Positions 1,542 through 16,853 of a DNA stretch of 17,413 nucleotides are shown here, in pieces. The translations under genes and the position numbers were made by a program. Under the pieces are notes generated by a model, which was not told the origin of the DNA, did not search any database, and saw only the letters and a program-made list of their open reading frames with translations. Source of the stretch: an uncultured Altererythrobacter sp. (GTDB lineage Bacteria; Pseudomonadota; Alphaproteobacteria; Sphingomonadales; Sphingomonadaceae); the NCBI GenBank assembly GCA_937950385.1, contig CALFEA010000003.1:1-17413 (forward strand), given 5' to 3'. Every line of letters starts with the position of its first letter. The stretch's first letter is position 1.

Positions 1542-4500
1542 TTAGAAGCTAAAGCGTGCTCCGATCCGGAAGATGCGGCCAGTGTTACGCAGCAAAAGTG
1601 TGCGCTCTGTTGGTTGGCTGCCGAGCGAAAGGTTTTCGCCTGGGATCGCATTCACCACGTCGGCATCGGCTTCCAGTACCGCATAGTCGCGGCGCACCGT
1701 ATCAAGCAGGTTCACAGCTTGGAAGTTAATCCGCCAGTAGTCGGTAATATCGAAACCACCTGAGAAGTCCAAAGATTCGCCGCCTTCGCTATAGCGACGT
1801 GTGCCGCCAATCTCAGGTGCGGACGAACGCAGGAAGTCCGAACGCTTATTGTATGCCAAACGAAGCTGAACACCATCCCTCTCATAGAAGCCGGTTATGT
1901 TGAATGTGTGCTTCGATGTGTTGGGAAGCGGCGCTGCGCGGAAAGTTTGCGCATTGCCCAGAGCATCATTGATAGTTTGTTCTTCTACTTCAGAATCGGC
2001 GTAAGTGTAGTTCGCTTGGAAGCCAAAGCCGCTCAAAAGCCCTGGCAGATAGGTGAAGTTGTGCTGCAAAGAAATTTCAGCACCGCGTACATATGCATTG
2101 GCGGCGTTGATTGGGCGGTTGAACTGCACAATCTCACACTCGCGAAGTGGCGGCGTTTCAAGTGCCAAATCTAGCACCCGGCTTGGCAAACACTCACCGA
2201 GCGGTTGATTGTTTGGATCAAACGGCAGCAACAAAGACGACGCTGATGGACTAAAGCCCGGGTCTTGCAATGCAACGCCATTACCGTCGAACAATGTCTG
2301 ACGGAAATCACGGATATAAAAGGTTTCAGACACCACGCGTTCTGAATCTTTCAAATCCTTATTGAACAGCGCAACCGAGAAGAGCGAGTTCTTGTCGAAA
2401 TACCACTCCACCGAAAGGTCCAGATTGTTCGACGTGAACGGTTGCAACTGCGGGTTGCCGCCACTGGCGAACGATGTGGTGAATGTGTTTTCATTGAACA
2501 AGAAGTTCGGACGCAAACGGTCAATATTTGGCCGTGCCATTGTGCGTGATGCCGCAAAACGAACCACCACATCATCCATCGCCAGCCAGTTGATGTTTAC
2601 CGATGGCAAGAAGTTATTGTAGCTATTCGTATCGGCCGCATCGACAGCAACTTGTTGCAGGAACCCTGGGTCGTTGCGATCGAGCAAGTCAGGGCCAAAG
2701 ATCGCCGTAATTTGAGCCTGCGCTTCTGCTTGGGTCGCGGTATTGGCTGGATCGCCAGCGCCAAAGAAGCCGAAGAACTCAAGGTTTTCAGGACGGTTTG
2801 CGAATTGCAAGAAGCTTGGCTGCGCGAGTGAACCACCGCTAACGTCTACGTCAGTGCGGACCCAGCGACCGCCAATATCACCAAAGATGCTGCCATCCGC
2901 AGTCTCAAAGTTTGCGAGTAGGTAGCCACCATAAACGGTGAGTTCCAGATCGCGGAAATCCCGGCCATTGGCAGTAGTAATCCCGGCATCGCCGCGCTCC
3001 TGTTGCAATGCAGTCCGCAATGCAATTGGGTCGAAGCCGATAATACCATCCGTGATGGAATCACGCTCAAGCCCAATGCCTTCGCCAAAGCCGTCGATCA
3101 AACCTTCGCCATCGACAAATGGCTCAATGCTGGCGCGTACATTGGAGAAGTCAAAGCGGCTGAGGAACGTGTTGGTTTGGCGCTGAACGCGGTTACGTTT
3201 GTCCCACTTAAAGCCAGCTTCAATCGAAGTGATTGGGCCAAATGATGTTTCCCAATCGACATCGAAGTAAAGGCTGGTTGCTTCATCGTCGATTGCCCGG
3301 TCGCGCGATGAGACACTGCCGATGTCAAATTCAAAACCGTCATCGATAATGGCAACATCGGGATTGGCTGCATTAGTTCCACCCAAGGTTCGATTAGGAA
3401 CTGTGTCGCTCAAGAAGATTGAGCAACCGCCCCCAGGGACGCAATCAAAGCCCTTAGTTAGACCTGGGCGGTCACGGAAACCGTTGAATGAATTGTTACC
3501 AGCTTGCTGAGGGCGGGGGCCGCCAGCTTGGTTTTCGATTTGAGCGGTTGCGTCAATAAAGTCGTTGTCGCGCCCTTTACTGCTCGAATGGCCGCCCGAT
3601 AGCGAGAATGTGAATGGGCCTGCACGATGTTCTGCATCGAAGCCGATAACCCATGTGTCCTCGTCGATATCCTCACGAGTTTGTTGCGGACGGATGTAAC
3701 CAGGGTTGCGCGCGCTACCTGGGCCAAAGCCATTGGCCGTGCTGCGATAGTTATACAGCGTTGAGTTGTCCGGATCGTAGAAATTCTCTGTGCCCTGCCA
3801 CAGCGGGAAGAATTGCGGTGCTGCACGGATGGCTAGCTGTGACGCTTCGCGGTTCCGGTTCACATGTGTGTATGTACCATCAATTTGAATGTCCGTGTTT
3901 TCACTCGGACGCCACTGGATTGTACCGGTGATATTGTCCCGCTTAGTTGAGAAAAAGGTTTGGTTGTAGGCCACTTGGAATGGCAGCAAAACGCGCAATT
4001 CTTGTTCTGGAATGATCGCTCCACCAGCATCACGTGGATCGAACACCAATTGTCCTGTGTTGATATCGGTAATACCACCTGGCAGCAATTGGACACCGGC
4101 ACCATTTACGAAGGGGTCGCGAATATTATTCGTCGCTTCGTAGCGGTTGATTTCCATTGAATCCGCGCGACCTGAATTGCGCTCGGTTGTTGCCACAATA
4201 GAGATGCCGACCGTGTCGTTGAATAGCTTTTGCGACAGGGCAACATTGGCGCGGTAATCGCCGCCAAAGAAATCGTCACCAATGATGAAGTCTTGGTCTG
4301 CGAACGGCGAATAGCGCGCCTGCAGCTCAAACACCCGGCGGTTCTTTTTCACATCTAGCGGCTTGAAGCTCTCTAGCCGAATAGTGGCGCCTAGGCTCCC
4401 TTCATTGTCGTCAGCACTTGCAGTTTTTGCGACTTCAATGCGCGAGAGAATATCGGAAGAAAATGCACTGAAATCGACTGCTTGGCCGCCAGCGCCGTTG

Positions 4501-4934
4501 CGCACATCGCCAGCGGCGTTGGTAACTGTAACACCGTTAAGCGTAACATTGTTGAGGTTGGCATCGACACCGCGAACGGTAACTGTGCTGCCCTCCCCAT
4601 CGGTACGGTCAATGGCGACACCCGTTACACGTTGCAGGGCTTCAGCAACGTTTTGATCCGCTGACTTACCAATATCCTCGGCGTTGATGCCGTCGACGAT
4701 ATTTCCCGAATTGCGTTTGTCAGCAAGAGCATCGGCAAGCGATTTGCGGAAGCCGGTGACGAAAATGGTGTTTTCTTCTGCCGTGTCGTTAGCAGCTTCT
4801 TCGCCTGCGTCATTCCCAGCGTCTTGCGCCGCCGCCGGTGCAGCGGCGCAGATGAATGCTAGCGCTGAGGCGCTGGCGAACAGTTTAACCGCCGATCGCG
4901 GATCAAACTCTGAAATTTGTTTGTCGTTAGCCAT
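1542..4934 (-). CDS. TonB-dependent outer-membrane receptor (galactan oligosaccharide uptake)
   Basis: The product is 1130 residues from an ATG at 4934, chosen because GGGAG sits 8 bases upstream; an in-frame TTG at 4949 would begin within that ribosome site. Residues 1-37 are a signal peptide ending in APAAAQ. A TonB-box-like TIFVTG (about 56-61) precedes a plug domain with the usual VAEALQRVTGVAIDR and VTVRGVDANLNNVTLNG motifs. The rest is a beta-barrel ending in ARFSF, the terminal aromatic typical of outer-membrane barrels. The style is that of the Xanthomonas/Caulobacter receptor group (TIGR01782-like), which imports plant and algal sugars without a SusD partner. It is the last gene of the cycloisomerase-GH16-receptor operon, 42 bases after the GH16 stop. 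The substrate is inferred from its neighbours: large anionic galactan oligosaccharides. Confidence 0.93.
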   Translation of the reverse strand: MANDKQISEFDPRSAVKLFASASALAFICAAAPAAAQDAGNDAGEEAANDTAEENTIFVTGFRKSLADALADKRNSGNIVDGINAEDIGKSADQNVAEALQRVTGVAIDRTDGEGSTVTVRGVDANLNNVTLNGVTVTNAAGDVRNGAGGQAVDFSAFSSDILSRIEVAKTASADDNEGSLGATIRLESFKPLDVKKNRRVFELQARYSPFADQDFIIGDDFFGGDYRANVALSQKLFNDTVGISIVATTERNSGRADSMEINRYEATNNIRDPFVNGAGVQLLPGGITDINTGQLVFDPRDAGGAIIPEQELRVLLPFQVAYNQTFFSTKRDNITGTIQWRPSENTDIQIDGTYTHVNRNREASQLAIRAAPQFFPLWQGTENFYDPDNSTLYNYRSTANGFGPGSARNPGYIRPQQTREDIDEDTWVIGFDAEHRAGPFTFSLSGGHSSSKGRDNDFIDATAQIENQAGGPRPQQAGNNSFNGFRDRPGLTKGFDCVPGGGCSIFLSDTVPNRTLGGTNAANPDVAIIDDGFEFDIGSVSSRDRAIDDEATSLYFDVDWETSFGPITSIEAGFKWDKRNRVQRQTNTFLSRFDFSNVRASIEPFVDGEGLIDGFGEGIGLERDSITDGIIGFDPIALRTALQQERGDAGITTANGRDFRDLELTVYGGYLLANFETADGSIFGDIGGRWVRTDVDVSGGSLAQPSFLQFANRPENLEFFGFFGAGDPANTATQAEAQAQITAIFGPDLLDRNDPGFLQQVAVDAADTNSYNNFLPSVNINWLAMDDVVVRFAASRTMARPNIDRLRPNFLFNENTFTTSFASGGNPQLQPFTSNNLDLSVEWYFDKNSLFSVALFNKDLKDSERVVSETFYIRDFRQTLFDGNGVALQDPGFSPSASSLLLPFDPNNQPLGECLPSRVLDLALETPPLRECEIVQFNRPINAANAYVRGAEISLQHNFTYLPGLLSGFGFQANYTYADSEVEEQTINDALGNAQTFRAAPLPNTSKHTFNITGFYERDGVQLRLAYNKRSDFLRSSAPEIGGTRRYSEGGESLDFSGGFDITDYWRINFQAVNLLDTVRRDYAVLEADADVVNAIPGENLSLGSQPTERTLLLRNTGRIFRIGARFSF

Positions 4935-4976
4935 GGTATTTTCTCCCAAAAAATCCTGTATTTTTAAGCGTGTGAG

Positions 4977-6419
4977 TTAATTTCTATGCTTGATCGCGAT
5001 GTCGTCGATAAAGATTGAACCGCTGCCATCCTTGCCGACATTGTCGCGGTGAACCGAAAGCTTCATGAGGTCATTATCCCCCGATGCAGTGGGCAAATCG
5101 AAGCCGATTGACACAATGTTCCATTGCCCGGCGGTAAGCGCCGAAAGGTCGATGGCGGGCAGTTCATAATGCGGGTCATCCAGCCAAACGTTGAGCTCTT
5201 TCACGTCCACGCCCTCTTCTGGCTTGACCATCATCGTCAGCGTGTATGCGCCAGCTTTGAGATCAACCGAGCCTTCTGGGCCGGAAATGAACGAACGCGC
5301 GGTTGGCAATTGCCCGTCATGTCTAAACGCGAGGGCTTTGATGCCGCTGTGATATTCGCTGTCTTCGACAACAGACCAATGTTCCTGCGCGCGGAAATTA
5401 GTGCGCCAGAATTTCTGGTAGTCATTTTCCTCAGAACTTTCTGGAACTAGATCAAGCGGCCGCGGCTTGTCTTCATACAGCATTGGCCCCTCAAACCCGA
5501 AGAACGCGGGCGCCAATAAATTGTCCGTCGGCTTTTGCCAGATGCGGACATAATCAATTTCATAATCGGCTGGCAGCTCACCCTTATCGGGATAGCCGAG
5601 CCACCGGAAAATCTCTGAATCAAACCAAATTTCAAGCGGATTGTTCAGTACCCAGCCTTTGGCATCCTCGCGTTTGATCTCGCTTGTTTGAACGCCGTCG
5701 ACGTAGAACTTGACTGAATTGGGCGACCATTCTGCGGCATAAACATGAAATCCGCTGGAGACATTGTAGCCAAGCGGCGTGTTGCGCTGGAAGGATTTGT
5801 TGCGTCCAAATTCGGGTTCAAAATGGCCGGGTCGCCAGTCATGTCCGGCAGAATTGAACTTCTCTGGGTGAACGCGTTTGGTGGGCAGTTTTATGTTGCC
5901 CATTTGCTCGTAAACATCGAGCTCAGATTCGTAACCAATCGCCCAAAAGGCACTAGTCATGGTCGCTGGATTGGCTTTGGTGCGGGCCTCCATATAACCA
6001 TTGAGGAAGCGCTTTTTGCTAATGATCGCCGCTGTTGTAACAGGCGCGATTTCCTCGCCATATTGCGCGCCCGCATAGCCGTGGTCGGCAAAGTCGAAAT
6101 CCGGCTCCCACTGCGTGCGCAGTTTCAGGTGACCGCCTTCAACGATCACATTATGCGGCGCATATTGAGAGGGCGCGCGGCCTTTCCAGATGTAATAATT
6201 GCCGCCCTTGCCTTGGACAAACCACTTATCGTGATCAATCTCATCGCCATCAAATTCATCGCTGATATCGGTGTTGAGCACCCAACCGCCTTTGTTGCCT
6301 TGATCAGACAGCGGGAGGGGGCCGGCTTTACCTGCATCATCATTGGCAGCGGCAAGTGATGCAAATCCAAGATTTGCACCAGCGGCGATGAGGACACAGA
6401 GCTGATACGTCTTATGCAT
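4977..6419 (-). CDS. Secreted GH16-family galactanase (carrageenase/furcellaranase/porphyranase-like)
   Basis: The product is 480 residues with a signal peptide over about 1-25. The GH16 domain spans about 45-297, from an SDEFDG segment to the characteristic DYEIDYVRIWQK end. The active-site strand reads ELDVYE: Glu166 is the expected nucleophile, Asp168 the helper and Glu171 the acid/base, giving the ExDxxE form with a beta-bulge that is found in carrageenases, agarases, porphyranases and laminarinases. A WKGRAPSQ stretch (78-85) recalls the porphyranase/furcellaranase side of the family. Residues about 305-480 form a second beta-rich module that looks like a carbohydrate-binding jelly roll. 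The ATG overlaps the upstream cycloisomerase stop by one base (TGATG), with GAGG 7 bases ahead, so translation is probably coupled. The precise galactan cannot be read from sequence; sulfatases and a KDGal pathway nearby favour a carrageenan-type substrate. Confidence 0.88.
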   Translation of the reverse strand: MHKTYQLCVLIAAGANLGFASLAAANDDAGKAGPLPLSDQGNKGGWVLNTDISDEFDGDEIDHDKWFVQGKGGNYYIWKGRAPSQYAPHNVIVEGGHLKLRTQWEPDFDFADHGYAGAQYGEEIAPVTTAAIISKKRFLNGYMEARTKANPATMTSAFWAIGYESELDVYEQMGNIKLPTKRVHPEKFNSAGHDWRPGHFEPEFGRNKSFQRNTPLGYNVSSGFHVYAAEWSPNSVKFYVDGVQTSEIKREDAKGWVLNNPLEIWFDSEIFRWLGYPDKGELPADYEIDYVRIWQKPTDNLLAPAFFGFEGPMLYEDKPRPLDLVPESSEENDYQKFWRTNFRAQEHWSVVEDSEYHSGIKALAFRHDGQLPTARSFISGPEGSVDLKAGAYTLTMMVKPEEGVDVKELNVWLDDPHYELPAIDLSALTAGQWNIVSIGFDLPTASGDNDLMKLSVHRDNVGKDGSGSIFIDDIAIKHRN

Positions 6420-7708
6420 CAGTCGACCTCAAAATGTTTGATGAAATCAGGGTCCGGATCAATACCGAGACCAGGTGCAGTGGGCAGTGCAACATGTCCG
6501 CCGTTGGCTTTAACCTGTTCACTGATACGAAGAGGCTCCTGCAAGAGCTCCTCGCGAAAGCGGTTCGGCGTGGTGTCATATTCCAGCATGGGCTGAACCG
6601 GATGGGCGGCACCCGGAAAATCAGGCAGTGCGGCCAATAGGTGAAGATTGGTTCCCACCGCCACTGCAGAGCCCCAGACATGGTTCACCACAGGCACAAA
6701 ATGCGTTTGAGCCAGCGTTAGGACTTTTTGATATTCTGAAATCCCGCCAAGCGCGCACACTTCTGGTTGAAGAATATCAACGCATCTGCCTTCGATCAGG
6801 TCGCGGAAGCCCCAGCGGGTAAATTCCGCTTCGCCGCCGGCAATATTTATATCGAGTGCCGTGCACAGCTCGCGGTAACCTTGCTTATCTTCAGGCGCCA
6901 CAGGCTCTTCGAACCAATGCACGTTTTGGCTTTCCAACGCTCGGCCAAGGCCAATCGCTTCGCGCGTTGTATACGCATGGTTGGCGTCCACCATCAGATC
7001 TGTCTCATCGCCAATGGCAGTGCGCACCGCTTCGACCAGCTTCATGTCCTCTTTCGGACCAAGGCCAATCTTCATTTTCATTGCGTTAAATCCGGCATCC
7101 CGGATTTTGGCGCTTTCAGCGGCAAAAAGTCCCGCAAGGTCATCCTTGCGTTGGAGCATCATGCCGTAGCCATAAACATCAATCTTGTCGCGGAATGCGC
7201 CGCCGAGCAATTTGTAGACGGGCTTTTGAGCAAGCTTGCCAGCAATGTCCCAAAGCGCAATATCCACGCCCGACAAGGCTTGAATTGGCATGCCCTTCTG
7301 ACCGTGATCCCGCATGAGGTTATAGGCCTTGTGCCAAATAACTTCGCGGTCTTGCGGATCCATACCAATGATCATCGGCGCGATGACCCGTTCAACAATG
7401 GTTTTGTTTGCAAAGGCAATATTTCCGCCGCCAAAGCATTCACCCCAGCCCGTTACACCAGCATCGGTTTGCACCTCCACGAGGTGCGCGGTGCGCTGCG
7501 CGTAATATTGCTGGGAATAACCAAGCTCTTCATCGAGGTCATATTGTAGGACATGACTTTTGACAGCAGTGATCTTGACCGGAGCAGTGCGGCCGATGAT
7601 CTCTCCGGTAAGCTCTGACGGCCATTCCTCATTTGCAGAATGGCTGTGCCCATGAGGCGCGACTGACCCAGCGTTGCTGCGCATGTCGATATTATCGATC
7701 GTCGGCAT
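6419..7708 (-). CDS. Enolase-superfamily cycloisomerase, probably 3,6-anhydrogalactonate cycloisomerase
   Basis: The product is 429 residues from the ATG at 7708, preceded by GGGAGGGA 7 bases upstream. An ATG at 7753 would start inside the operator and promoter, so it is rejected. It belongs to the mandelate racemase group: the K-x-K base is Lys211-Met-Lys213; metal ligands are Asp241 (VDANHAY), Glu267 (FEEPV) and Glu293 (GGE); the opposite base is His343 (NHVWG). From memory it resembles galactarolactone cycloisomerase of Agrobacterium, with shared WGEC, LSGxDIALWDI and a C-terminal PMLEYDTTPNRFR segment. In algal-galactan degraders, relatives open 3,6-anhydrogalactonate to 2-keto-3-deoxygalactonate. 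Next to GH16 and dgoKA, that is the likely reaction. Odd points: a 43-residue N-terminal extension with HGHSHS, and Glu316 where the family usually has the Asp that pairs with the catalytic His. It is first in its operon. Confidence 0.83.
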   Translation of the reverse strand: MPTIDNIDMRSNAGSVAPHGHSHSANEEWPSELTGEIIGRTAPVKITAVKSHVLQYDLDEELGYSQQYYAQRTAHLVEVQTDAGVTGWGECFGGGNIAFANKTIVERVIAPMIIGMDPQDREVIWHKAYNLMRDHGQKGMPIQALSGVDIALWDIAGKLAQKPVYKLLGGAFRDKIDVYGYGMMLQRKDDLAGLFAAESAKIRDAGFNAMKMKIGLGPKEDMKLVEAVRTAIGDETDLMVDANHAYTTREAIGLGRALESQNVHWFEEPVAPEDKQGYRELCTALDINIAGGEAEFTRWGFRDLIEGRCVDILQPEVCALGGISEYQKVLTLAQTHFVPVVNHVWGSAVAVGTNLHLLAALPDFPGAAHPVQPMLEYDTTPNRFREELLQEPLRISEQVKANGGHVALPTAPGLGIDPDPDFIKHFEVD

Positions 7709-7753
7709 TGCCTTGTCCCTCCCCCGTCGACGCTTTTTGCGATTCGACTGCAT

Positions 7754-7783
7754 TTAATAAACATCATATGTTTATATTTGCAA
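7754..7783 (-). promoter_or_regulatory. Candidate sigma-70 promoter of the cycloisomerase operon
   Basis: On the minus strand, TTGCAA (7783-7778) and TATTAA (7759-7754) are spaced by 18 bases, with the operator filling the spacer. The -10 box is about 45 bases upstream of the ATG. The match to consensus is moderate. Confidence 0.5.
7757..7775. promoter_or_regulatory. Operator palindrome, site 1 (cycloisomerase-GH16-receptor operon)
   Basis: ATAAACAT-CAT-ATGTTTAT is a perfect 8-3-8 inverted repeat. It lies between the candidate -35 and -10 boxes of the operon that starts at 7708, so a bound protein would block RNA polymerase. The inner 15 bases are identical to site 2. Confidence 0.8.
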
Positions 7784-7835
7784 GACCCTTGTGAGTGTTC
7801 TTGCGGGAAAGGTCGCTCTAATAAGCGCTGAGCGG

Positions 7836-8210
7836 TTATTTGTTGAGCAGAGCTGGCGGCGTTTCATCAGCTGAAAGCATGCCATCGCCATTCTTGTCGC
7901 GCTTGCTAAACACCCACAGAAACACCTCAACAATTTCATCAGCGGCCATTATATTGTCACCGTTGGTGTTAAACCGCTCAAGCGTAAGGGCTTGAAACTC
8001 GCCCTTATTCTTGCCCAGCCATTCGGCTGATGACAATTGGCCATCCTTATTGGTGTCGCGCTGCCTCATCGCGCGTTCGCCCATGGCCATAACAAATTCT
8101 GTTTGATCGAGCCGGCCATTACCATCGGGATCGACGCCCGCTTTATACGAAGGTGTCGCGGCAGAGGCGCTAGCTGAAACCATCAGTCCTGATGTCAGTA
8201 GCGCCAGCAT
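7836..8210 (-). CDS. Small secreted EF-hand calcium-binding protein
   Basis: From the ATG at 8210 the product has 124 residues: a signal-like N-terminus ending in ASASA (about 1-18), then four EF-hand-like loops at about 27-38 (DPDGNGRLDQTE), 52-63 (DTNKDGQLSSAE), 81-92 (NTNGDNIMAADE) and 105-116 (DKNGDGMLSADE). Loop 3 starts with Asn and is the weakest. The frame continues upstream without a stop to a CTG at 8240. That CTG has GGGAG exactly 7 bases ahead and would add ten residues (LKIAGARITS), giving a more normal signal peptide with Lys and Arg before the hydrophobic core; the ATG has no good ribosome site. The true start may therefore be CTG at 8240. Its promoter carries the cluster operator, so it is likely co-induced. 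The role is unknown: calcium handling around sulfatases or galactan binding is only a guess. Confidence 0.8.
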   Translation of the reverse strand: MLALLTSGLMVSASASAATPSYKAGVDPDGNGRLDQTEFVMAMGERAMRQRDTNKDGQLSSAEWLGKNKGEFQALTLERFNTNGDNIMAADEIVEVFLWVFSKRDKNGDGMLSADETPPALLNK

Positions 8211-8270
8211 GCTTGTGATTCTTGCACCTGCAATTTTCAGCTTGTTTCTCCCATTTCAATTGAGAGCAAC

Positions 8271-8285
8271 AAACATCATATGTTT
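8271..8285. promoter_or_regulatory. Operator palindrome, site 2 (EF-hand gene)
   Basis: AAACAT-CAT-ATGTTT is a perfect 6-3-6 inverted repeat identical to the core of site 1, about 30 bases upstream of the possible CTG start of the EF-hand gene. A perfect minus-strand -35 box, TTGACA (8296-8291), lies just upstream, so the operator falls in the spacer; the -10 (TTTGTT, 8273-8268) is weak. Confidence 0.75.
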
Positions 8286-8345
8286 AAGAGTGTCAAGATT
8301 GAGCTGGATATGCGGCCATGTCACTGGCGATGAACCTGCGCGATT

Positions 8346-9503
8346 CTACCAATTGGTGTAGGAGCCATCTGGTTTGATCATCCGGGGCGGTTCCCAATAT
8401 TCAAAACTGCATGCGGCGACCGCTTCTTCATTGACCAACACGCCGTGGCCAGGGCGCTCGTTGATCGGATAAGAACATCCCTCAACCACGGGCGCATTTT
8501 CGAAATAGCGGGACAAATCCTCTTTATCACGCAATTCATAGGGGGCGATTTCATGCGAGAAGAAGTTCGGGATTGCCGCATTCATTTCTAATGTGGCAGC
8601 GGTGCAAACAGGGCCGAGCGGGTCATGCGGCATGACGTCAATATAGTGTGCTTCTGCCATAGCCGCGACCTTCATCGCCTCTGTCAATCCACCAACATTG
8701 CACACGTCAATGCGCGCAAAATTGGTCAGTCCGCGCTCAATCAACGGTCCAAATTGCCATTTGTCTGAGCATTCCTCTCCGATTGCGAAAGGAACGTCGG
8801 TCATTTTTCGCAAGGTTTCATACGCCTCTACTGATTGGAAGCGGATCGGCTCTTCTAGGAAATCCAATGTTGCCGGCGGCATTTTCTGACAGAAGCTTGC
8901 AGCCTCTGCCACGCTGAGGCGGTGGTGATAATCAATGCCAAGCACGATTTCCTCGCCAATTTCTTGACGCAATTCGGTTAAAGCAGAGGCCGTGTTCGCA
9001 AGCGCTTTGCGTAGGTCTAGCATGGTGGGTCCATCAGGCCCGCCAAGATCGCCAGCAGCAAGGCGAATGGTGCTCCAGCCATTGGCGATGAAGCTTTTGA
9101 CTTCCTCCACCATGCCATCGTCATGCGGTTTGATCGAGGTGACAAAGCAATCGACACGGTCGCGCTGCCTCCCGCCAAGCAGGCGGTGGATCGGCACACC
9201 CATCGCTTTGCCTGCAATATCCCAGAGCGCGATATCGATGGCCGAAAGCGCAGCTGTCAGAACCCTGCCGCCTTCGAAATACTGCCCCCGGTAAATCTCT
9301 TGTCCGATTGCGCCAATGCGCCTTGCATCCTTACCAATCAGGAATTCACGCAAATGCTCAATCGCGCCCGCGACTGCTTTTTCGCGGCTCGAAAGTCCAG
9401 ATTCGCCCCAACCAAAAAGCCCCTCATCCGTCTCGACTTTAACGAGACAAAGATTGCGATGACCCACCCAAACGGGATAGCATTTTACGTCGATAATTTT
9501 CAT
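8346..9503 (-). CDS. dgoD: Enolase-superfamily sugar acid dehydratase, D-galactonate dehydratase-like
   Basis: The product is 385 residues, the same size as E. coli DgoD (about 382), starting MKIIDVK at 9503 with GGAG 10 bases upstream. Motifs match the galactonate/mannonate dehydratase side of the superfamily: Asp191-Tyr-His193 (DgoD has D-F-H), Glu217 (FLEEP), Glu243 (IGEE) and His293 in MPHDPLGP (APHCPLGP in DgoD). The expected reaction is D-galactonate to 2-keto-3-deoxy-D-galactonate plus water. It is the third gene of the dgoK-dgoA-dgoD unit, 24 bases after the aldolase stop. Differences from DgoD are Arg147 (TIRLAA) where DgoD has Lys (TFKLNG), and ARIDVCNVGG in place of LQPDLSHAGG. The exact acid substrate, galactonate or a related or anhydro acid, is therefore not certain, and the symbol is by analogy. 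Confidence 0.78.
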   Translation of the reverse strand: MKIIDVKCYPVWVGHRNLCLVKVETDEGLFGWGESGLSSREKAVAGAIEHLREFLIGKDARRIGAIGQEIYRGQYFEGGRVLTAALSAIDIALWDIAGKAMGVPIHRLLGGRQRDRVDCFVTSIKPHDDGMVEEVKSFIANGWSTIRLAAGDLGGPDGPTMLDLRKALANTASALTELRQEIGEEIVLGIDYHHRLSVAEAASFCQKMPPATLDFLEEPIRFQSVEAYETLRKMTDVPFAIGEECSDKWQFGPLIERGLTNFARIDVCNVGGLTEAMKVAAMAEAHYIDVMPHDPLGPVCTAATLEMNAAIPNFFSHEIAPYELRDKEDLSRYFENAPVVEGCSYPINERPGHGVLVNEEAVAACSFEYWEPPRMIKPDGSYTNW

Positions 9504-9527
9504 CGCGTGGCCACTCCGAACACGTAT

Positions 9528-10148
9528 TTAAGCTGCAATCGCTGCAAGCAAGGATTTTGCCTTTGCGCGTATATCATCCGGTGTATCGCCGGGCTTGTAA
9601 AGATCGCCGCCAATGCCGTACCCTTGTGCGCCTGCAGTTTTCCAATCTGCAATATTCGACGCGTTTATGCCTCCTGTAACGACGAATTGGACATCCTTGG
9701 GCAAAACAGATGCCAAGGCTTTTAGATGGCCGGTGCCATAAGTGCTCGCAGGAAAGAGTTTCAAAATGCGTGCGCCAGCATCCACCGCAACAAGAGCCTC
9801 GGTGGCTGTGGCAACGCCCGGAACAGCGATCATTCCAGCCGCAACGGCAGCTTTGATTACGTCTGCATTGGTATTGGGTGTGACGATAATGCGCCCGCCT
9901 GCGTCTTGCACCATGTGAACAGCATCGACTGTGAGCACAGTGCCAGCGCCAGTGATGCAGTCAGAGGGAACGGCCTCTGTCATTGCGCGGATGGATGTGT
10001 AAGGATCGGGCGAATTGAGAGGGACTTCGATGCAGCGAAAGCTGTCATCATACAGCGCAAGAGCCGCATCTACGGCCTCATGCGGCTGAATTCCTCTTAA
10101 TATAGCAACCAAGGGGTTGGTTGCCATGGCCTGTTCCATTGTTGTCAT
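9528..10148 (-). CDS. dgoA: 2-dehydro-3-deoxy-6-phosphogalactonate aldolase
   Basis: The product is 206 residues, a normal length for class I KDPG/KDPGal aldolases. It cleaves 2-keto-3-deoxy-6-phosphogalactonate to pyruvate and glyceraldehyde 3-phosphate in the cytoplasm. The LVAILRG start strand, Glu41 (CIEVPLNSP), GAGTVL, IIVTPNTN and the Schiff-base Lys130 in ILKLFPAS are all present. The Glu-to-Lys spacing of 89 equals that of E. coli DgoA (Glu37, Lys126). The C-terminal GIGGDLYKPGDTPDD segment is of the DgoA type rather than Eda. The gene starts 23 bases after the dgoK stop. AGAGGA lies about 10 bases before the ATG, and a second in-frame ATG at codon 4 is possible. Confidence 0.92.
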   Translation of the reverse strand: MTTMEQAMATNPLVAILRGIQPHEAVDAALALYDDSFRCIEVPLNSPDPYTSIRAMTEAVPSDCITGAGTVLTVDAVHMVQDAGGRIIVTPNTNADVIKAAVAAGMIAVPGVATATEALVAVDAGARILKLFPASTYGTGHLKALASVLPKDVQFVVTGGINASNIADWKTAGAQGYGIGGDLYKPGDTPDDIRAKAKSLLAAIAA

Positions 10149-10171
10149 AGCTTTATATCCTCTTGCCGCGT

Positions 10172-11089
10172 TTATAATGCGAGAAAGCCGGCATGAATGG
10201 CATCCATTCCATCCAGCGTGCGAGATGTTTGACCAAGTCGGTCAATTGCAACAGCGTATTTCTTGCAAAGTGATGGGTCCCCCACCAGTTCAACTCCTGC
10301 CGCAGGCGCGCCATAGAGCGTAAACGCATTTTGTACGCATGACCCAATGATAAGTCCTGATAAATAGCTTGGCGCATCCCCGGCGTTGTCAGGATCAGTT
10401 AGCCCGCGCGTCCGCGTAGAGAATAACGAATGCAGCAGGGCATTGGGCTGGCTCATGATAAGATCGACCCCTGCGTTAAAACTGTCCTGATCGAATGGTT
10501 TGGCAAAGATCACATCGTCCTTGCTAACCAAAATGGAATGCTCTTTCAGCAGAGCGAAGAGTTCCCCAGTCAGCGATGTGTCAAAGGTTTCCAGCCGGCC
10601 ATCTGTCATCCGGCACCATTTGGTATGCGTGCCAGGCAGGCAGAATAAGCGGTCTTCTTGAGAGGTGTCTTGATGCGAGGCCAGCCATCCCAGCATTTGC
10701 AATTCTTCGCCGCGCATCAAATCGGGTTGGCCCATCGGATTGGTGCAGCGCAAACCGGGCAGGATGGCCATTTTATGCCCGCATTGTTCAAACCGTTCGG
10801 CATAATCCGCCAGATCACCAAGCCGTGTGGGGCAGGTGACATAAGGTGTCTCACGCCAACCAATATTGGAGCCGACCATACCCGCCATTACAATATCCAA
10901 CTTGCCTAGCCTATCGGTCCAAGGCTGGATCGCGTTGAGCAGAACATCGGCAATCGGACGTGAGAGCCTAGCAATGCCTTCGCCGGTGACCACATGATCA
11001 CGATCAAGGCCCAAGCTGCCATCTTCGATCAGCATCGCCCGCATACGGCTTGTGCCCCAATCGACACCGACATACGGCTTAGTAAGCAA
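10172..11089 (-). CDS. dgoK: 2-dehydro-3-deoxygalactonokinase
   Basis: The product is 305 residues (E. coli DgoK has about 292). It phosphorylates KDGal at C6 with ATP. The N-terminal phosphate loop VGVDWGTSRMRA and the family blocks VMAGMVGSNIGW, LPGLRC, MRGEELQMLG, PGTHTKWC, TGELFALL and YLSGLIIG are all recognisable. The start is TTG at 11089, with GGAGG 8 bases upstream. An in-frame TGA lies two codons before it, so no earlier start exists, and the next ATG would remove the phosphate loop. An out-of-frame ATG between the ribosome site and the TTG opens only a five-codon frame. It is the first gene of its operon, divergent from the MFS gene and sharing an operator-bearing intergenic region. 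Confidence 0.92.
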   Translation of the reverse strand: MLTKPYVGVDWGTSRMRAMLIEDGSLGLDRDHVVTGEGIARLSRPIADVLLNAIQPWTDRLGKLDIVMAGMVGSNIGWRETPYVTCPTRLGDLADYAERFEQCGHKMAILPGLRCTNPMGQPDLMRGEELQMLGWLASHQDTSQEDRLFCLPGTHTKWCRMTDGRLETFDTSLTGELFALLKEHSILVSKDDVIFAKPFDQDSFNAGVDLIMSQPNALLHSLFSTRTRGLTDPDNAGDAPSYLSGLIIGSCVQNAFTLYGAPAAGVELVGDPSLCKKYAVAIDRLGQTSRTLDGMDAIHAGFLAL

Positions 11090-11153
11090 TTTTCATCCCT
11101 CCAAAGGCTGCGTCAGTCCATCGCTGGAGCTATGTCGCCCATTCCCCCTAATG

Positions 11154-11168
11154 ATTCATCATATGTTT
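11154..11168. promoter_or_regulatory. Operator-like site 3 in the dgoK/MFS divergent promoter region
   Basis: ATTCAT-CAT-ATGTTT matches sites 1 and 2 at 13 of 15 bases; the right half-site and spacer are identical and the left half has two changes. It sits in the intergenic region between divergent dgoK and the MFS gene and could control both. A plus-strand -10-like TAAAAT lies at 11176-11181; the -35 there is weak. Confidence 0.65.
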
Positions 11169-11259
11169 GCATAGTTAAAATGATTATGCCATTGTTGATC
11201 TTTAAGGAACCGCGCTACGAGACTAAAATATTCGTAGGCGTTTGGAAGGGGAAACGCGA

Positions 11260-12822
11260 ATGTTCGCCACAGCTACTCAGCGCAATGTCACGCGCTACGC
11301 CTTTATCGCAGCCTTTGGCGGTTTCGTTTTTGGAGTGGATGCAGCCAATATTTCCGGCGCTATTCGCTATATCAGTGCGCTGTTTGGATTGACCGCTACA
11401 GAAGCAGGTCTGGCGGCGAGCATTCCGTTGATAGGAGTGATTTTTGCGCTCTTTTTCACAGGCCTTTTGTGCGACAAATTTGGGCGCAAAAGGGTGCTGT
11501 TGGCGATTGGCTTTACGTATCTAATCTCCGCGCTATTGTCCGCATTTGCGCCAAGCTTTGGAGTGCTTGTGGTCGGTCGCTTTATTGGCGGCGTCGCCTT
11601 TGCCTCGCTCACTGTATCAGCAATGTATATTGGCGAGGTTGCACCAGCAAACCAGCGCGGGCGGTTTGTTTCTGTCTCGCAATTGTTGATCACTCTCGGC
11701 ACTCTGCTGGCTTTTGTGGTGAACTATTTTCTTGTTGGCTGGATCAGCGATAGCGGCGTGCTGACAGAGCAGAACATATGGCGCTATATGCTTGGCTTCG
11801 AGCTGATCTTTAACGCGATCTGGATCGCTGCGCTTTACACTATTCCTGAAAGCCCGCGGTGGTTAATTTCCAAGGGCCGCAAGGAAGAGGCCAAAGCGAT
11901 CTTTGCTAAAACGCTCTCGCCGGAACAGGTTACTGCAACACTGGCTGATGTGGAGAATTCTGTAGAGGATGAAGAGCGCACTAACGTCGTTGAACAAATG
12001 GGCAAATTGTTCTCCAAACCCATGTGGTTTGTGCTGACGGTGGCCTGTGTTTACGCCGTTGCGCAAGGCGCGACCGGCATGAATGCCGTGCTTTTCTTCG
12101 CGCCCACCGTGTTCGAGCAGATCGGGATGAGCACGCAAGACACCTTCTTCCAAACCATGATCCTTGGCCTAGTCGCTGTGCTGGCCACTTTGGTTGCAAT
12201 CACCTTGGTTGAAAAATGGGGCCGCCGCACTCTGACATTGCTGGGCCTTGCGCTAGTGATCGCTGCGCATTCATCGACATGGTACGGGTTTAACTCGGCG
12301 ACTTATGAGATGAGCGATAGCGCCATTGCGAGCATGGTGGAGGCCGATCCGGAGTTTGATGCCTCGCGCCTCAGCACGCTCATCGGCAAAAGCTATGAAA
12401 GCGATGTTGCGTTGAAAGCAGACCTTGCTGGTGTCTACACATTGGAAGAATTGCCACTAATCAGCGGGACCATCATCGACAATACAATCACCATTGAGCC
12501 GTTCTTTGTGTTGTTTGGACTGTTCGCATTTTATGCCGCGTTCAACATGTCCATCGGGCCGATAATGTGGGTGATTTTCTCAGAAATTTTCCCAACTTCG
12601 GTGCGCAGTGTGGCGCTGCCCTTTGTCGCTCTGGTGCAAACCATATCGAGTTGGGCAGTGACGCAGGCGTTTCCATGGCAATTGGAGAATTTGGGTTCGG
12701 CCACCACGTTCCTAATTTTTGCGGTGATTGGCGTGATTGGGCTGGTCGCAATGTTCTTCTTATTGCCGGAGACGAAGGGCAAATCGATTGAAGAACTTGA
12801 GCGCGAGCTGATCAAAGCCTAG
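11260..12822 (+). CDS. MFS sugar porter (sugar:proton symporter type) with long periplasmic loop
   Basis: The product is 520 residues from the ATG at 11260, preceded by AAGGGG 8 bases upstream; an in-frame TTG at 11242 lies before that site and is less likely. It has twelve hydrophobic segments and the sugar-porter signatures: DKFGRKR (72-78), GRFIGGV (107-113), PESPRWL (196-202), GATGMNAVLFFAP (270-282), GRRTL (321-325), GPIMWVIFSEIFP (433-445) and PETKG (503-507). It should sit in the inner membrane and import a hexose or anhydrohexose released in the periplasm. Unusual is an acidic loop of roughly 65 residues (about 345-412) between segments 9 and 10, predicted to be periplasmic; typical bacterial sugar porters have a much shorter loop here. 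It is followed 23 bases later by the SDR gene. Confidence 0.9.
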   Translation: MFATATQRNVTRYAFIAAFGGFVFGVDAANISGAIRYISALFGLTATEAGLAASIPLIGVIFALFFTGLLCDKFGRKRVLLAIGFTYLISALLSAFAPSFGVLVVGRFIGGVAFASLTVSAMYIGEVAPANQRGRFVSVSQLLITLGTLLAFVVNYFLVGWISDSGVLTEQNIWRYMLGFELIFNAIWIAALYTIPESPRWLISKGRKEEAKAIFAKTLSPEQVTATLADVENSVEDEERTNVVEQMGKLFSKPMWFVLTVACVYAVAQGATGMNAVLFFAPTVFEQIGMSTQDTFFQTMILGLVAVLATLVAITLVEKWGRRTLTLLGLALVIAAHSSTWYGFNSATYEMSDSAIASMVEADPEFDASRLSTLIGKSYESDVALKADLAGVYTLEELPLISGTIIDNTITIEPFFVLFGLFAFYAAFNMSIGPIMWVIFSEIFPTSVRSVALPFVALVQTISSWAVTQAFPWQLENLGSATTFLIFAVIGVIGLVAMFFLLPETKGKSIEELERELIKA

Positions 12823-12845
12823 CCATAGCTTTCGGCAGGGGAATA

Positions 12846-13628
12846 ATGATGGCTGGCAGATTAGAAAATAAAGTCGCAATCGTAACAGGTGGGGCCGACG
12901 GAATTGGCCGGGCCATCAGCATCCTTTACGCGCAAGAAGGCGCTAAAGTGTGTATTGCCGACATCAATGATGAGCTTGCCGGCCAAGTTGTAGCAGAGAT
13001 CGCGTCTTTTGGCGGGAAGGCAATGTTTGCGCATACAGATATCAGTGACCCCGCCAGCATCGCGGCAATGGTCAATCAAACGGTAGAAACCCTTGGTGAG
13101 CCGCAGGTGCTAGTGAACAACGCAGGCTTTATTACATTTACCGATGATCCAGCAACGCTCGACCGCGCGACTTGGAAGAAGATTTTCAGCGTCAATCTAG
13201 AAGGCATGTGGGAATGCAGCCGTGCGGTATTGCCCTTTATGCGCAAGGCTGGCGAAGGCGTGATCGTCAATCTGGGCTCTGTCCATTCGTTCCAGATTGT
13301 TGGCGGGCACTTTCCCTATGCGATTACGAAGCACGGCGTGATCGGCCTTACCCGCAGCTTGGCCGTTGAATATGGTCCTGAAAACATCCGTGTGAACGCT
13401 CTTTGCCCAGGCATGGTGGAAACGCCAACGGCCATGGCCACTTGGGCAGCGATGGATGACCCTGAAGGCGTGCGCAAAGCGGTGGGTGATTTACACCCGC
13501 TCCGGCGCAATGCTTCTTGCGAAGAAATGGCTTATCCAGCCCTTTTCCTTGCCACGCATGAGTCGAGTTTCATGACGGGCCAATCGCTGATTGTAGATGG
13601 CGGAAGGTCCGCATTTTACTCTGACTAG
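12846..13628 (+). CDS. Short-chain dehydrogenase/reductase, probable NAD-dependent sugar dehydrogenase
   Basis: The product is 260 residues, a classical SDR. Cofactor loop TGGADGIG (14-21), Asp39 at the end of the second strand (favouring NAD over NADP), NNAG (91-94), and the catalytic set Ser145, Tyr158 and Lys162 (YAITK) are present. Two consecutive ATGs occur (12846, 12849); AGGGG is 4 and 7 bases upstream, so the second may be used. In an operon with the porter and opposite dgoKAD, oxidation of D-galactose to galactonolactone is the natural role, feeding the SMP-30 lactonase and the dehydratase. Several hexose dehydrogenases are SDRs, but the substrate cannot be read from the motifs, and oxidation of another sugar is possible. 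The stop codon lies in a hairpin shared with the convergent sulfatase. Confidence 0.85.
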   Translation: MMAGRLENKVAIVTGGADGIGRAISILYAQEGAKVCIADINDELAGQVVAEIASFGGKAMFAHTDISDPASIAAMVNQTVETLGEPQVLVNNAGFITFTDDPATLDRATWKKIFSVNLEGMWECSRAVLPFMRKAGEGVIVNLGSVHSFQIVGGHFPYAITKHGVIGLTRSLAVEYGPENIRVNALCPGMVETPTAMATWAAMDDPEGVRKAVGDLHPLRRNASCEEMAYPALFLATHESSFMTGQSLIVDGGRSAFYSD

Positions 13629-13649
13629 AGCGCTTTCATCTGCGCTCTA
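13626..13649. terminator. Hairpin spanning both convergent stop codons
   Basis: TAGAGCGC (13626-13633) pairs perfectly with GCGCTCTA (13642-13649), an 8-bp stem with an 8-base loop. The outer three bases are the TAG stop of the SDR on the plus strand and, symmetrically, the TAG stop of the sulfatase on the minus strand. It sits exactly where two transcription units meet and could act as a bidirectional terminator or 3'-end stabiliser. There is no clear T-run on either side, so intrinsic termination is not certain. Confidence 0.5.
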
Positions 13650-15104
13650 TTGGGCCTGATCTGGTGTCCAATTCCATTCCACCGCGTCCTTGTTAGGAAC
13701 GCGGTATTTATCCATCCGGTCAGTATCATACTCTTCAAACCGCTGAGCAAGTGTCCATAGCGGGCGTTCTTGAGACAGCTCCCATCCATGGATTTGTTTA
13801 AACATTGAGCGGACACGGTCTGGATATTTGTCCGCCAGATTGTTCTGTTCGCCAATGTCGTTTGCGACATTGTACAATTCAGCCGGACGGTCAGCGAAGC
13901 GGATTAGCTTCCAATCACCTTCCCGCATCGAAGCACGAACGTCTTTCCGCCAAAACAGCGCATCATGCGGATCGCCAGACTTCTCGCCGGAAATAAACGG
14001 CCAAAGGACCTTGCCGTCTACGTTCTTTAGACTCGATGCATCGCCGCCAGCAGCAGCAAAAAATGATGGGAGCAAGTCCATCGTGCTGACCGGACGATCA
14101 AATGTCGCACCCTTGGAAAGCTTTGCCGGCCAACTAATAACAAACGGTACTCTTAACCCGCCCTCTAAGTGGTTTGATTTGGTACCCGCAAGCGGCCAAT
14201 TAACTGAGCCGTTCTTGTCAGTCGGGCCGCCATTGTCGTTAGTGAAAACAACGATTGTATTGTCTTCTAGGCCGTGTGTCTTGAGCGTATCCAAAACATT
14301 CCCGGTTGCGCGATCCATCGCCAGCGTCATTGCAGCGTATATCTTACGCTTGCCCTTCAAATTGGGGAATTGCGCCAGATCCTCCTCGGTCGCCTCCATC
14401 GGTGTGTGCGGCGCGTTGAACGACAGAAAGATAAAGAACGGCTCATCTTTGTGACGGGTGATGAAATCAGCCGCCTCGTCGCCTAAAGCGTCAGTCACAT
14501 ATTTGTCTGGTTCTTCAAATTGGCCAAAGCCGCGTTCCATACGGTTGTCATGGTGCTGGGGCCGATTGTTCGGACCCAATGGGAAGAAGCTGCGTGCGCC
14601 GCCACGAAAGCCATAAAATTCGTCAAAGCCGCGAAATGTAGGATGGAAACGGTCCGCATTGCCCAAGTGCCATTTGCCATAAACAGCCGTTTTATAGCCG
14701 CGCTCTTTCAGCCGATCAGCAATGGTACGCTGATCCAACGGCAAGCCCATATCATCGCCCAAAAATTTGGAATTGGGGCTCATATACCCAGGAACATTGA
14801 TCTCTTGGTAGCCGAACTTTTGTTGATAGCGCCCGGTCATCAAACCAGCCCGAGAAGGGCCACAAGTTGGATCGGTAACGTAACCTTGAGTGAAGCGCAC
14901 TCCGCGTTTGGCCAAAGCATCCAAATGGGGGGTCTTCATTTCTTTGCTGCCCTGGAAGCCGAAATCATTATAACCTGCATCATCAGAGAAGATCAGAATG
15001 ATATTCGGCTGATCGCCGCGCTTTTGTGGATGGGCATGCACACCAACGGCCAACGCTGGGGTAACAGCCAGCATCAGAAGTAAGGCAAAAGCTCTTCTCA
15101 ACAT
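13647..15104 (-). CDS. Secreted S1-family (formylglycine) sulfatase
   Basis: The product is 485 residues with a signal peptide over about 1-24 (Arg3-Arg4, hydrophobic core). It has the full arylsulfatase layout: metal-binding SDDAG (Asp41, Asp42); the CGPSR signature with Cys81, the residue converted to formylglycine; [13 protein letters not shown] (Lys144, His146); APH (His233); TNDNGG (Asp290, Asn291) and GTKSNH (Lys309). It hydrolyses a sulfate ester, here presumably on galactan oligosaccharides in the periplasm. The position of sulfate attacked cannot be read. The Cys form needs a formylglycine-generating enzyme or an anaerobic sulfatase-maturing enzyme, neither of which is in the window. 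AGGGA lies 7 bases before the ATG. It is downstream of the GntR gene by 55 bases and may be cotranscribed with it. Confidence 0.93.
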
Positions 15105-15159
15105 CTTAAAATCCCTAATTTTGGACGCAATTCGTTCTTTGAGTTCGGAAATCCCAAAT

Positions 15160-15906
15160 TTAAATTATGGGGTCAGCTCCCAGCTCGAGACGCAGCCTAC
15201 GGACCGAATCTTCAAGCAGTTTGGAGGTTAGTTTTTCTGCCTTTGCGCCATTACGACTTTGCAACGCATTGGCGAGATCGCGATGGAACGGAATAGAAGC
15301 ACCATTCTCCCGCGGATCCTTATTGGTAATCCGAACAGAGATCAGCAGCGCCGAAAATGTCACGCCCTCAATCGCTGCAAGGAACTCATTATGGGCAGCA
15401 TGTAGGATCGCTTTGTGGAACAATGCATCGGCGATGATGAAGCGTTCAGTTGAACCTTGTTCTTCAGCCATTTTATCGCAGGCCACTTGAATGTCCTGCA
15501 ATTCTTCTTCAGTCGCACGCGCTGCTGCCCAGCGTGCGGCTTTGGGCTCAATTGCCAATCGTATCTCGGCCAATTGCGCTAGGAATTCGCGGCGCGGTGG
15601 CGCGGACAAATGCCATGCCATCACGTCATCATCGAGCAGTTTCCAATGATTGCGAGGCCGGACATGCGTGCCAATCCCGCGGCGGACGGAGAGCATTCCT
15701 TTTTCTACCAGAATCTTAACGGCCTCGCGGACTACGACACGGCTAACGGAATATCGTTCTGCCAGTGAATTTTCGTCTTCGATCAATTCGCCCGGTTCAA
15801 ATGATCCGGCAACAATACGCCGGCCCATTTCGCGCGCCATTTGTGCAGGAAGTGTCAGCCGCACATTGGCGGAGTTTTTTAGATCATAATAAACGAGTTC
15901 ACTCAT
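15160..15906 (-). CDS. GntR-family regulator, FadR subfamily (DgoR-like)
   Basis: The product is 248 residues. The winged helix-turn-helix covers about 15-85 ([19 protein letters not shown], then the wing RRGIGTHV); the linker reads [13 protein letters not shown], as in DgoR-type regulators. The C-terminal all-helical FCD effector domain (about 105-240) includes EIRLAIEP, Asp160-x3-His164 and His208, candidate metal ligands; a further His usual in metal-binding FCD domains is not obvious. Such proteins usually repress and are released by a sugar acid such as galactonate or a KDGal-type compound. The AAACAT-N3-ATGTTT repeats at three promoters in the cluster are the best candidate operators; none is seen in front of this gene itself. 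It lies 68 bases downstream of the lactonase. Confidence 0.9.
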
Positions 15907-15974
15907 CTAACCTCACTACTCTTGAATCGTCTCTTAGCCAAGTGCAGCAAGGATTGGCTGAACGGCGCAGAATG

Positions 15975-16853
15975 TCACGGTAAAATCACGGCCGGTTCTG
16001 GCGTGCCCTCTACGCAGCCCGCAAATCGCAAAGTTGTGCCATGGACGATTGCGTCTTGTCCCGCTTCGTCAAGGCCGACAGCGGCCGTTGTGACAAACAA
16101 ATCGCGGTAATCTGGTCCGCCAAATGCTGGGCATGTTGCGCGCGGTGTTTGGGTTTCGAAAGTCTCAACCACCGTGCCCTCTGGCGAAATACGTTGCACC
16201 GCTGCCCCATCGAATATCGCGGCAAGCATATGGCCATGCTTATCGATAATCGCGCCATCGACTGTGGTGCCCTCGGCGGAATAATCGAGGAAAATCTCGC
16301 CTTCGCCTTTGGGCCAACCATCCACGTCGAGTGTCATGCGCCAAGTCGTTTTGGCTGCAGAATCAGTGAAGTAGCCAAAGCAGCGTTCGCGGTCGAAGCA
16401 TAGGCCATTGGTCACTGTGATATCTGTTATCAATTGGCGCAGCTCGCCTTTGTAGTAGCGGTAAAAACTGCCTGCACCCTTTTTAGCCGATTTGCTCATC
16501 GTGCCAATCCAAAATCCGCCCCACGGATCAGCGCGGCCATCATTGGAGCGTGTGCGGTTTTGATCCGCTTCGATATCGACCAGCTTTTCAGTCGCCCAAT
16601 CGGCAATTGTGAGTTTGTATAGGCCGCTTTCTGTCGCCAGCAACAGCGTGTCTTTGTCGATCCACCCCAGTGCAGAGACCATTTCATCAAACTGATGCTC
16701 ACGCTGACCGGCAGGGCCATTGCTCATAACTTTGCGATCAGGAATATCGACCCAGAACAATTCATCGCGCAGTGGATGCCACAGCACGCCTTCGCCAAGC
16801 CTACAGGGACGGTCATCGTAGATATCGATCACGTGGCACTTCCCTTTTGTCAT
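15975..16853 (-). CDS. SMP-30/gluconolactonase-family sugar lactonase
   Basis: The product is 292 residues, a six-bladed beta-propeller of the SMP-30/regucalcin/gluconolactonase type. Metal ligands are Glu21 (LGEGVLW), Asn149 (TNGLCFD) and Asp199 (VDGAIID); Asn104 in RSNDGRADPWGGFWIGTM is the usual substrate-side Asn. There is no signal peptide, so it acts in the cytoplasm. It would hydrolyse the lactone made by a sugar dehydrogenase, here most likely galactono-lactone from the SDR, and possibly the lactone of anhydrogalactonate. Its ATG overlaps the stop of the upstream sulfatase by four bases (ATGA), so the two genes are probably translationally coupled. Confidence 0.9.
   Translation of the reverse strand: MTKGKCHVIDIYDDRPCRLGEGVLWHPLRDELFWVDIPDRKVMSNGPAGQREHQFDEMVSALGWIDKDTLLLATESGLYKLTIADWATEKLVDIEADQNRTRSNDGRADPWGGFWIGTMSKSAKKGAGSFYRYYKGELRQLITDITVTNGLCFDRERCFGYFTDSAAKTTWRMTLDVDGWPKGEGEIFLDYSAEGTTVDGAIIDKHGHMLAAIFDGAAVQRISPEGTVVETFETQTPRATCPAFGGPDYRDLFVTTAAVGLDEAGQDAIVHGTTLRFAGCVEGTPEPAVILP

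Follow-up and report, generated by a model that had tools for sequence, protein, structure and literature searches.

A stretch of 17,413 nucleotides from an uncultured Altererythrobacter sp. (contig CALFEA010000003.1, positions 1 to 17,413; hereafter, the window) carries a gntR gene encoding a regulator of 248 amino acids, a cluster of predicted polysaccharide and sugar-acid genes, and three copies, named O1, O2 and O3, of an inverted repeat of the form AAACAT-N3-ATGTTT (the box; Table 1). A reading of the sequence alone had proposed that these copies define a local regulon, with the GntR protein as the candidate binder. Genome comparison lends strong support to that candidate, and both the operator and its regulon appear to be real and are well supported; they would be of an ordinary kind, with an unusual operator sequence.

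Judged by sequence, the window is part of a locus of the kappa/iota-carrageenan type (carrageenan being a sugar of red seaweeds) that also serves anhydrogalactose. The assembly breaks inside the sulfatase gene at its right edge: the end of a second contig, C49, has 141 bases identical to the start of the window's reverse strand (an exact overlap), and both contigs align to one Sphingopyxis stretch. C49 encodes a GH167-like enzyme (9whd, 514 bits) and relatives of kappa- and iota-carrageenan sulfatases. The pairing of carrageenan-specific sulfatase and glycoside hydrolase by which a carrageenan locus is recognized is thus found in predicted form, the GH16 enzyme of the window itself scoring under the kappa-carrageenase cut-off. 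An operon that starts on C49 with an aldehyde dehydrogenase gene takes in GH16, two sulfatases and the lactonase before it reaches gntR in the window, and its order is the same in Sphingopyxis. The cycloisomerase of the window matches at 77% the P. carrageenovora gene that adjoins the aldehyde dehydrogenase of that species, and at 65% its Roseibium relative; its true start is probably Met16, at 7708, the open reading frame (ORF) having been called too long, because relatives align only from residue 53-59 and because GGAGGGA precedes Met16.

Table 1. Features of the window, with positions, strand and supporting remarks.
Feature	Position	Strand	Remark
TonB-dependent receptor	1542..4949	-	
GH16 glycoside hydrolase	4977..6419	-	NCBIfam kappa-carrageenase 54.7 bits vs cut-off 350; best solved chain 9ijc; substrate unsettled
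Mandelate racemase/muconate lactonizing (MR/MLE) family enzyme, predicted DauB-type (3,6-anhydro-D-galactonate cycloisomerase)	6419..7753	-	
O1, perfect AAACATCATATGTTT	7759..7773	.	promoter of cycloisomerase-GH16-TonB receptor operon (minus reading)
TTGCAA, candidate -35 element	7778..7783	-	4 bases from O1, upstream on coding strand
EF-hand protein, O2 target	7836..8210	-	kept in L033 and L166
O2, perfect AAACATCATATGTTT	8271..8285	.	promoter of EF-hand gene
TTGACA, candidate -35 element	8291..8296	-	5 bases from O2, upstream on coding strand
Second MR/MLE-family enzyme, galactonate dehydratase-like	8346..9503	-	271.5 bits, under NCBIfam cut-off 311
2-dehydro-3-deoxy-6-phosphogalactonate aldolase (DgoA)	9528..10148	-	260 bits, cut-off 207
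2-keto-3-deoxygalactonokinase (DgoK), first gene left of O3	10172..11089	-	PF05035, 268 bits
O3, ATTCATCATATGTTT, 2 mismatches	11154..11168	.	between dgoK (minus) and MFS gene (plus)
MFS sugar transporter, first gene right of O3	11242..12822	+	
Short-chain dehydrogenase after MFS gene	12846..13628	+	
S1 sulfatase, behind gntR	13647..15104	-	closest solved relative exo-4S-kappa-carrageenan sulfatase 6prm, 657 bits
gntR, GntR winged-helix + FCD regulator, 248 amino acids, predicted binder of O1-O3	15160..15906	-	
SMP-30/gluconolactonase-family lactonase, upstream of gntR	15975..16853	-	
Sulfatase gene, 3' part	16850..17413	-	5' part on C49; operon headed by perfect box C49:6885-6899

Boxes in the window, in the assembly and in near relatives

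The two perfect copies and the third with two mismatches are present as the sequence-only reading had described them, the palindrome of O1 being lengthened by its flanks to ATAAACAT-CAT-ATGTTTAT (7757-7775). At up to three mismatches the window has five matches where 0.35 are expected, two of the five being the same palindromes on the opposite strand, and none of 200 shuffled windows gets to five. Counting the arms only, there are two perfect places and three at up to two mismatches; no further place at that threshold was found in the window, genic or intergenic, in keeping with the earlier remark that full copies are lacking inside genes. Because none of the 200 shuffles contained any perfect copy, the two perfect copies exceed chance on their own; and because 15 of the 200 reached three places at up to two mismatches, the case for O3 depends on comparison with relatives.

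The assembly searched comprises 2.05 Mb in 317 contigs and is 72.6% complete. It holds three perfect boxes: the two in the window and one on C49, between an FGE (sulfatase-activating) gene and the aldehyde dehydrogenase gene. Given the 141-base overlap and the common Sphingopyxis alignment, all three lie in one cluster. C49 also carries AAAGATAATATGTTT, a box with one arm mismatch, ahead of the GH167-like gene. The notion of a regulon with a shared site is strongly supported, but the regulon is wider than the window: the FGE gene and the GH167-like gene belong to it, as does the whole operon that runs aldehyde dehydrogenase-GH16-sulfatases-lactonase-gntR. At up to three mismatches the assembly yields 17 matches to the forward pattern versus 5 to the reversed pattern; a two-mismatch match at C74:4871 sits within a carbon-nitrogen hydrolase ORF and has the look of chance. 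In the 2.05 Mb covered, the scan that the sequence-only reading had called for finds that the motif is not common at unrelated sites.

Two near relatives, a Sphingopyxis (locus L033) and a second sphingomonad (genome G645, locus L166), keep the arrangement. O1 has a perfect counterpart before the same gene at L033:19097 and a copy with two mismatches at L166:8880; O2 is perfect in both, at L033:17620 (before GH16-EF-hand) and at L166:9401 (before EF-hand). The 15-mer of O3 is identical in the three species and lies at the same place between dgoK and the MFS gene, within 17 identical bases bounded by diverged flanks in the one pair aligned. This identity in both relatives indicates that the third copy is real. 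The EF-hand gene is also at the same place in both (56% and 48%); in G645 it follows its own box directly, in Sphingopyxis it follows a GH16 gene, and three sphingomonads thus have it in the regulon.

The claim that the first two boxes lie between -35 and -10 elements is borne out on its upstream side by TTGCAA and TTGACA, whereas the -10 boxes are weak by eye. The TTG at the -35 offset of O1 comes back in a profile of 58 oriented sites, none of them before gntR: T-T-G occupies positions -10 to -8 in 71, 64 and 52% of sites, and A-T-A-T follows right after the box in 74, 59, 62 and 81%. We read this profile as a -35 element, the box across the spacer, and a -10 element starting at the last base of the box. 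A protein bound at that position would obstruct RNA polymerase.

Distribution of the box and of the regulator gene

Over 47 loci (922 kb), AAACAT-N3-ATGTTT occurs in 101 perfect copies, a biased count in that the loci were chosen in part for boxes (some were fetched around box clusters); the other 29 half-site arrangements average 0.45. Spacers of 0-10 other than 3 gave only 0 to 3 copies each. Two of the 101 perfect copies are within called genes, though called genes cover 87% of bases; the calls are mechanical, and for one of these two boxes, ahead of the Paracoccus gntR, the called ORF is spurious. Around the regulator gene itself, 16 test loci contained 38 copies versus 0.2 for permuted half-sites, with a box in 14 of them; these loci were placed by gntR position with the box counts already known, and two (G346 and G384) with the boxes in sight. 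The central triplet of the 101 copies is CAT/ATG in 61 and AAT/ATT in 17. The constant CAT in one plus-strand orientation that had been noted for the three window copies is correct for them, but triplet and orientation vary among relatives. We dropped the idea that this orientation has a functional meaning: at the perfect boxes of the window, whose targets are minus-strand genes, the coding strand has ATG, whereas in the 58 sites from all genomes CAT is commoner on that strand.

Box and regulator occur together in genome samples of different breadth. Only two of 296 genomes of the order hold the regulator; each has three boxes, every one with spacer CAT/ATG, and the 39 copies found in 28 of the 294 remaining genomes include none with that spacer. 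Within the genus, the regulator occurs in two of 114 genomes, with 3 and 2 boxes and again the CAT/ATG spacer; among the remaining 112, three genomes carry a single copy, with differing spacers. The sample of the Aliiglaciecola (G296) family has a regulator match in 26 of 295 genomes. Boxes number 143 in the 21 holders tested (3 to 12 per genome) and 14 in 20 non-holders, the first 20 among 269 listed (0 to 4 per genome); the reversed pattern gives 19 and 10 copies in the same two groups. Two of the 26 matches are merely 36-37% homologues (G511 and G524, with 2 and 3 copies); these stand outside both box-count groups and are treated as non-holders in the cycloisomerase count below. G267 and G299 share box coordinates and were taken as one genome, and G296 and G297 are near-identical.

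The box is frequently found upstream of gntR itself. All seven of the first loci from relatives at 52-66% have a perfect box there. On the plasmids of Roseibium, Paracoccus and Sulfitobacter, to which the search was confined, the only perfect box lies 11-13 bases ahead of gntR; the Paracoccus start was placed by homology and is 42 bases ahead of its annotated position. Among 28 further gntR genes, from 26 readable loci of 30 (four without a readable start were dropped), 21 have a box at up to one mismatch within 400 bases upstream. Removal of three already known loci (L093, L094 and L098) leaves 17 of 24, five of them perfect, whereas the 29 permuted half-sites average 0.3 and reach 2 at most. 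The gntR-proximal box often ends about 11 bases ahead of the start codon (e.g., L038:19975-20001), and with so short an interval the gntR mRNA may be almost leaderless.

A cycloisomerase-like gene (E<=1e-60) is present in 23 of 24 holders and in none of 22 genomes lacking a close orthologue of the regulator; four of the 23 match at 77-78% and the others at 35-40%, a level that gives family, not function.

Some loci have tandem GntR paralogues. Both are preceded by a box in L098 and L104, and the second in L038 shows none in the 90 bases inspected; cross-regulation is possible. A 43% identical GntR just before position 12001 of a Pantoea sp. SO10 plasmid (L042) is without a box and has AAATATGATTTTTT twice upstream, which is perhaps a related operator minus C and G.

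The regulator, its predicted mode of action and the alternatives

The protein encoded at 15160-15906 has a GntR winged helix at its N-terminus (PF00392, 52 bits, cut-off 27) and an all-helical FCD domain at its C-terminus (PF07729, 79.2 bits, cut-off 24.3), and by these domains it belongs to the FadR/FCD subfamily, whose usual effectors are sugar acids or other small carboxylates. No NCBIfam model scores over its cut-off, the best being NanR (81.5 vs 260), and no DgoR model is among the matches listed. The closest solved chain is 7c7e, a distant one (114 bits), which we take to be DgoR. DgoR uses TTGT boxes. At position 28 in the numbering of PMC4494728, which corresponds to Arg35 of FadR, the residue in 35 members of the regulator's clade is N, A, T, G, S or D, with R absent from all; position 40 is Val in all of them and position 39 is Val in 31. 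The recognition helix of the window protein reads S-R-V-V-V-R. These residues agree with a changed operator code, short of proof. Loss of Arg35 is too simple to be, by itself, the cause of the new operator, since the distant 7c7e is likewise without Arg at that position in the printed alignment.

The repeat lies in promoters, is concentrated in genomes that hold the regulator gene and is conserved in relatives; we infer binding, repression and an inducer. Very probably, the box is the operator of this GntR/FCD protein, which would act as an autoregulated repressor of carrageenan and 3,6-anhydro-D-galactose use and be released by a sugar acid. With no inducer present, every catabolic promoter would have a regulator dimer on its AAACAT-N3-ATGTTT box, in the interval from the -35 to the -10 element, where it would block RNA polymerase. 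Carrageenan breakdown would supply a sugar acid from the 3,6-anhydro-D-galactose branch, which would bind the FCD domain and free the DNA; 3,6-anhydro-D-galactonate and 2-keto-3-deoxy-D-galactonate (KDGal) are the candidates, and D-galactonate the alternative. The units expected to be switched on jointly are cycloisomerase-GH16-TonB receptor, the EF-hand protein, dgoK-dgoA-dehydratase and MFS-dehydrogenase, together with the C49 units, i.e., aldehyde dehydrogenase, GH16, sulfatases, lactonase and, by autoregulation, gntR itself.

Several observations weigh against this reading. Operators of the FadR subfamily are typically TKGT-N3-ACMA, with NanR and BioR as the named exceptions in the passages available of PMC4494728; the box, at ACAT-N3-ATGT, has the spacing of 3 that the sequence-only reading had rightly matched to the subfamily but not its half-site sequence. 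No box was found directly before the window's gntR, and the Sphingopyxis regulator, an 88% relative, has only a two-mismatch copy directly before its gene. In the window this gap is explained by the operon head on C49, where gntR would probably be under its own box, five genes upstream; the explanation depends on joining C49 and the window by their overlap. Elsewhere, 7 of the 28 further gntR genes (7 of the 24 new ones) are without a box at up to one mismatch within 400 bases, and three of the six copies in G462 are away from such clusters and have other spacers. Two related GntR proteins occur in several gammaproteobacteria. In the 294 regulator-less genomes of the order, the box outnumbers its reversed pattern by 39 copies to 11, which means that a use or bias of another kind gives the palindrome some background there. 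Finally, in RNA-seq of strain U2A, 13 of 30 genes of the carrageenan utilization locus (CarPUL) are, in the portion of PMC6923384 covered, already transcribed on galactose, one sulfatase without further induction.

The last of these points bears on the inducer. If the operator and regulator are as proposed and the effector is D-galactonate, the galactose half of carrageenan would be sensed; this is possible, though we consider it rather unlikely. Transcription of part of the CarPUL on galactose would agree with it, as would the placement of dgoK, dgoA and the galactonate dehydratase-like gene under O3 and the presence of dgoK and dgoA beside the gntR cluster in Sulfitobacter. E. coli DgoR is itself a GntR/FadR repressor with D-galactonate as effector (PMC12288454, in the passages seen), and a figure legend of Gobet et al. 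names the GntR a galactonate operon repressor (PMC6262041, likewise in part). Set against this, what Roseibium, Paracoccus and Sulfitobacter have in common behind gntR is an ABC transporter together with an aldehyde dehydrogenase (51-54% to that of C49) and a DauB-type cycloisomerase (65-67% to that of the window), and the 40-kb stretches of Roseibium and Paracoccus, from plasmids with incomplete gene tables, carry no annotated dgoK or dgoA. On the strength of these shared genes in distant relatives, and of the cycloisomerase-like gene in nearly all holders, we favour 3,6-anhydro-D-galactonate or KDGal over D-galactonate as the putative inducer. The U2A data, in which iota-carrageenan induces 24 of the 30 CarPUL genes (PMC6923384, same portion), are compatible with either.

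The remaining alternatives concern the sign of control, the identity of the binder and the reality of the site. That the regulator activates, or both activates and represses, from the same box is improbable: the weak -10 elements of the window promoters and the positive regulation of carrageenan genes by the AraC-type CgrA of Zobellia (PMC5698469, in part) would suit an activator, but the box covers the -35/-10 spacer just behind the TTG in the 58-site profile, and its end some 11 bases from the start codon of gntR is a repressor's position. Even less probable is a different binder, whether an AraC-type or second GntR protein of the cluster, another FCD regulator of the genome, or a protein of some other kind. 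Candidates exist, in that the P. carrageenovora cluster encodes an AraC protein and another GntR, several genomes have the two GntR paralogues, and two more FCD regulators are encoded in the window's genome, on C182 and C72; yet box copy number tracks this particular GntR gene through Alpha- and Gammaproteobacteria, the sole perfect box of the Roseibium, Paracoccus and Sulfitobacter plasmids (plasmids only) is directly before it, and the scan of window proteins, as far as it went, brought up no other regulator. Chance, i.e., an A+T-rich palindrome of a common promoter type, retains a negligible probability: the excess over the reversed pattern in regulator-less genomes and the 15 shuffles that reach three imperfect places speak for it, and the O3 block kept amid diverged flanks against it. 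We rejected it on the shuffles without a single perfect copy, the reversed pattern, the permuted half-sites and the spacer scan.

Known systems and what the regulon would mean

The predicted repressor resembles E. coli DgoR in family, in having targets in a sugar-acid pathway and in inverted repeats that overlap the promoter, as described in passages of PMC12288454. It differs in its operator, since IR1 of DgoR contains TTGTAGTACAAC, of the GT-N3-AC type, whereas the box here is ACAT-N3-ATGT (same passages), and in its targets, which here are a whole sulfated-polysaccharide cluster. The Pseudoalteromonas CarPUL shares sulfatases, GH16, GH167-like and DauA/DauB-type enzymes, dgoK/dgoA, an MFS transporter, a lactonase and a 63% identical GntR, and all seven perfect boxes of plasmid pKCTC22325 are ahead of carrageenan-type genes or gntR; the gene bears the label GntR, galactonate operon repressor, in the figure legend of PMC6262041, and the passages covered do not describe operator or regulon. 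Zobellia galactanivorans CgrA is likewise a dedicated regulator of carrageenan genes, but it belongs to the AraC family and to another phylum and regulates positively, with no GntR box described in the part of PMC5698469 covered. A published operator for this regulator was not found in the literature, a search that left supplements and RegPrecise, where the motif may be present, outside its scope.

As a feature apart from the regulon, an IS6-family transposase gene (693-1409) lies just behind the TonB receptor gene of the window, and a nearby left-end fragment has weak, sub-threshold beta-helix matches.

Proteobacterial carrageenan clusters are known as co-induced, and in the passages covered their control is tied only to the Zobellia AraC-type activator. 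Control by one regulator through a sharply defined site would make the regulon predictable from sequence, box-preceded genes of unknown function included. The system also offers a test case for change of DNA specificity in FadR-type proteins and might yield a sensor part that responds to anhydrogalactose or sugar-acid metabolites. A broader reading, to which we give even chances, joins these elements: a divergent FadR-type clade would have switched its operator code from GT-N3-AC to ACAT-N3-ATGT along with its recognition helix, and regulator and boxes would have moved as one module among marine Alpha- and Gammaproteobacteria, both chromosomally and by plasmid, to provide a common control of red-algal galactan digestion, with the sphingomonad regulon including the small EF-hand protein. 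If this is true, the EF-hand member would add a calcium-handling part to carrageenan use.

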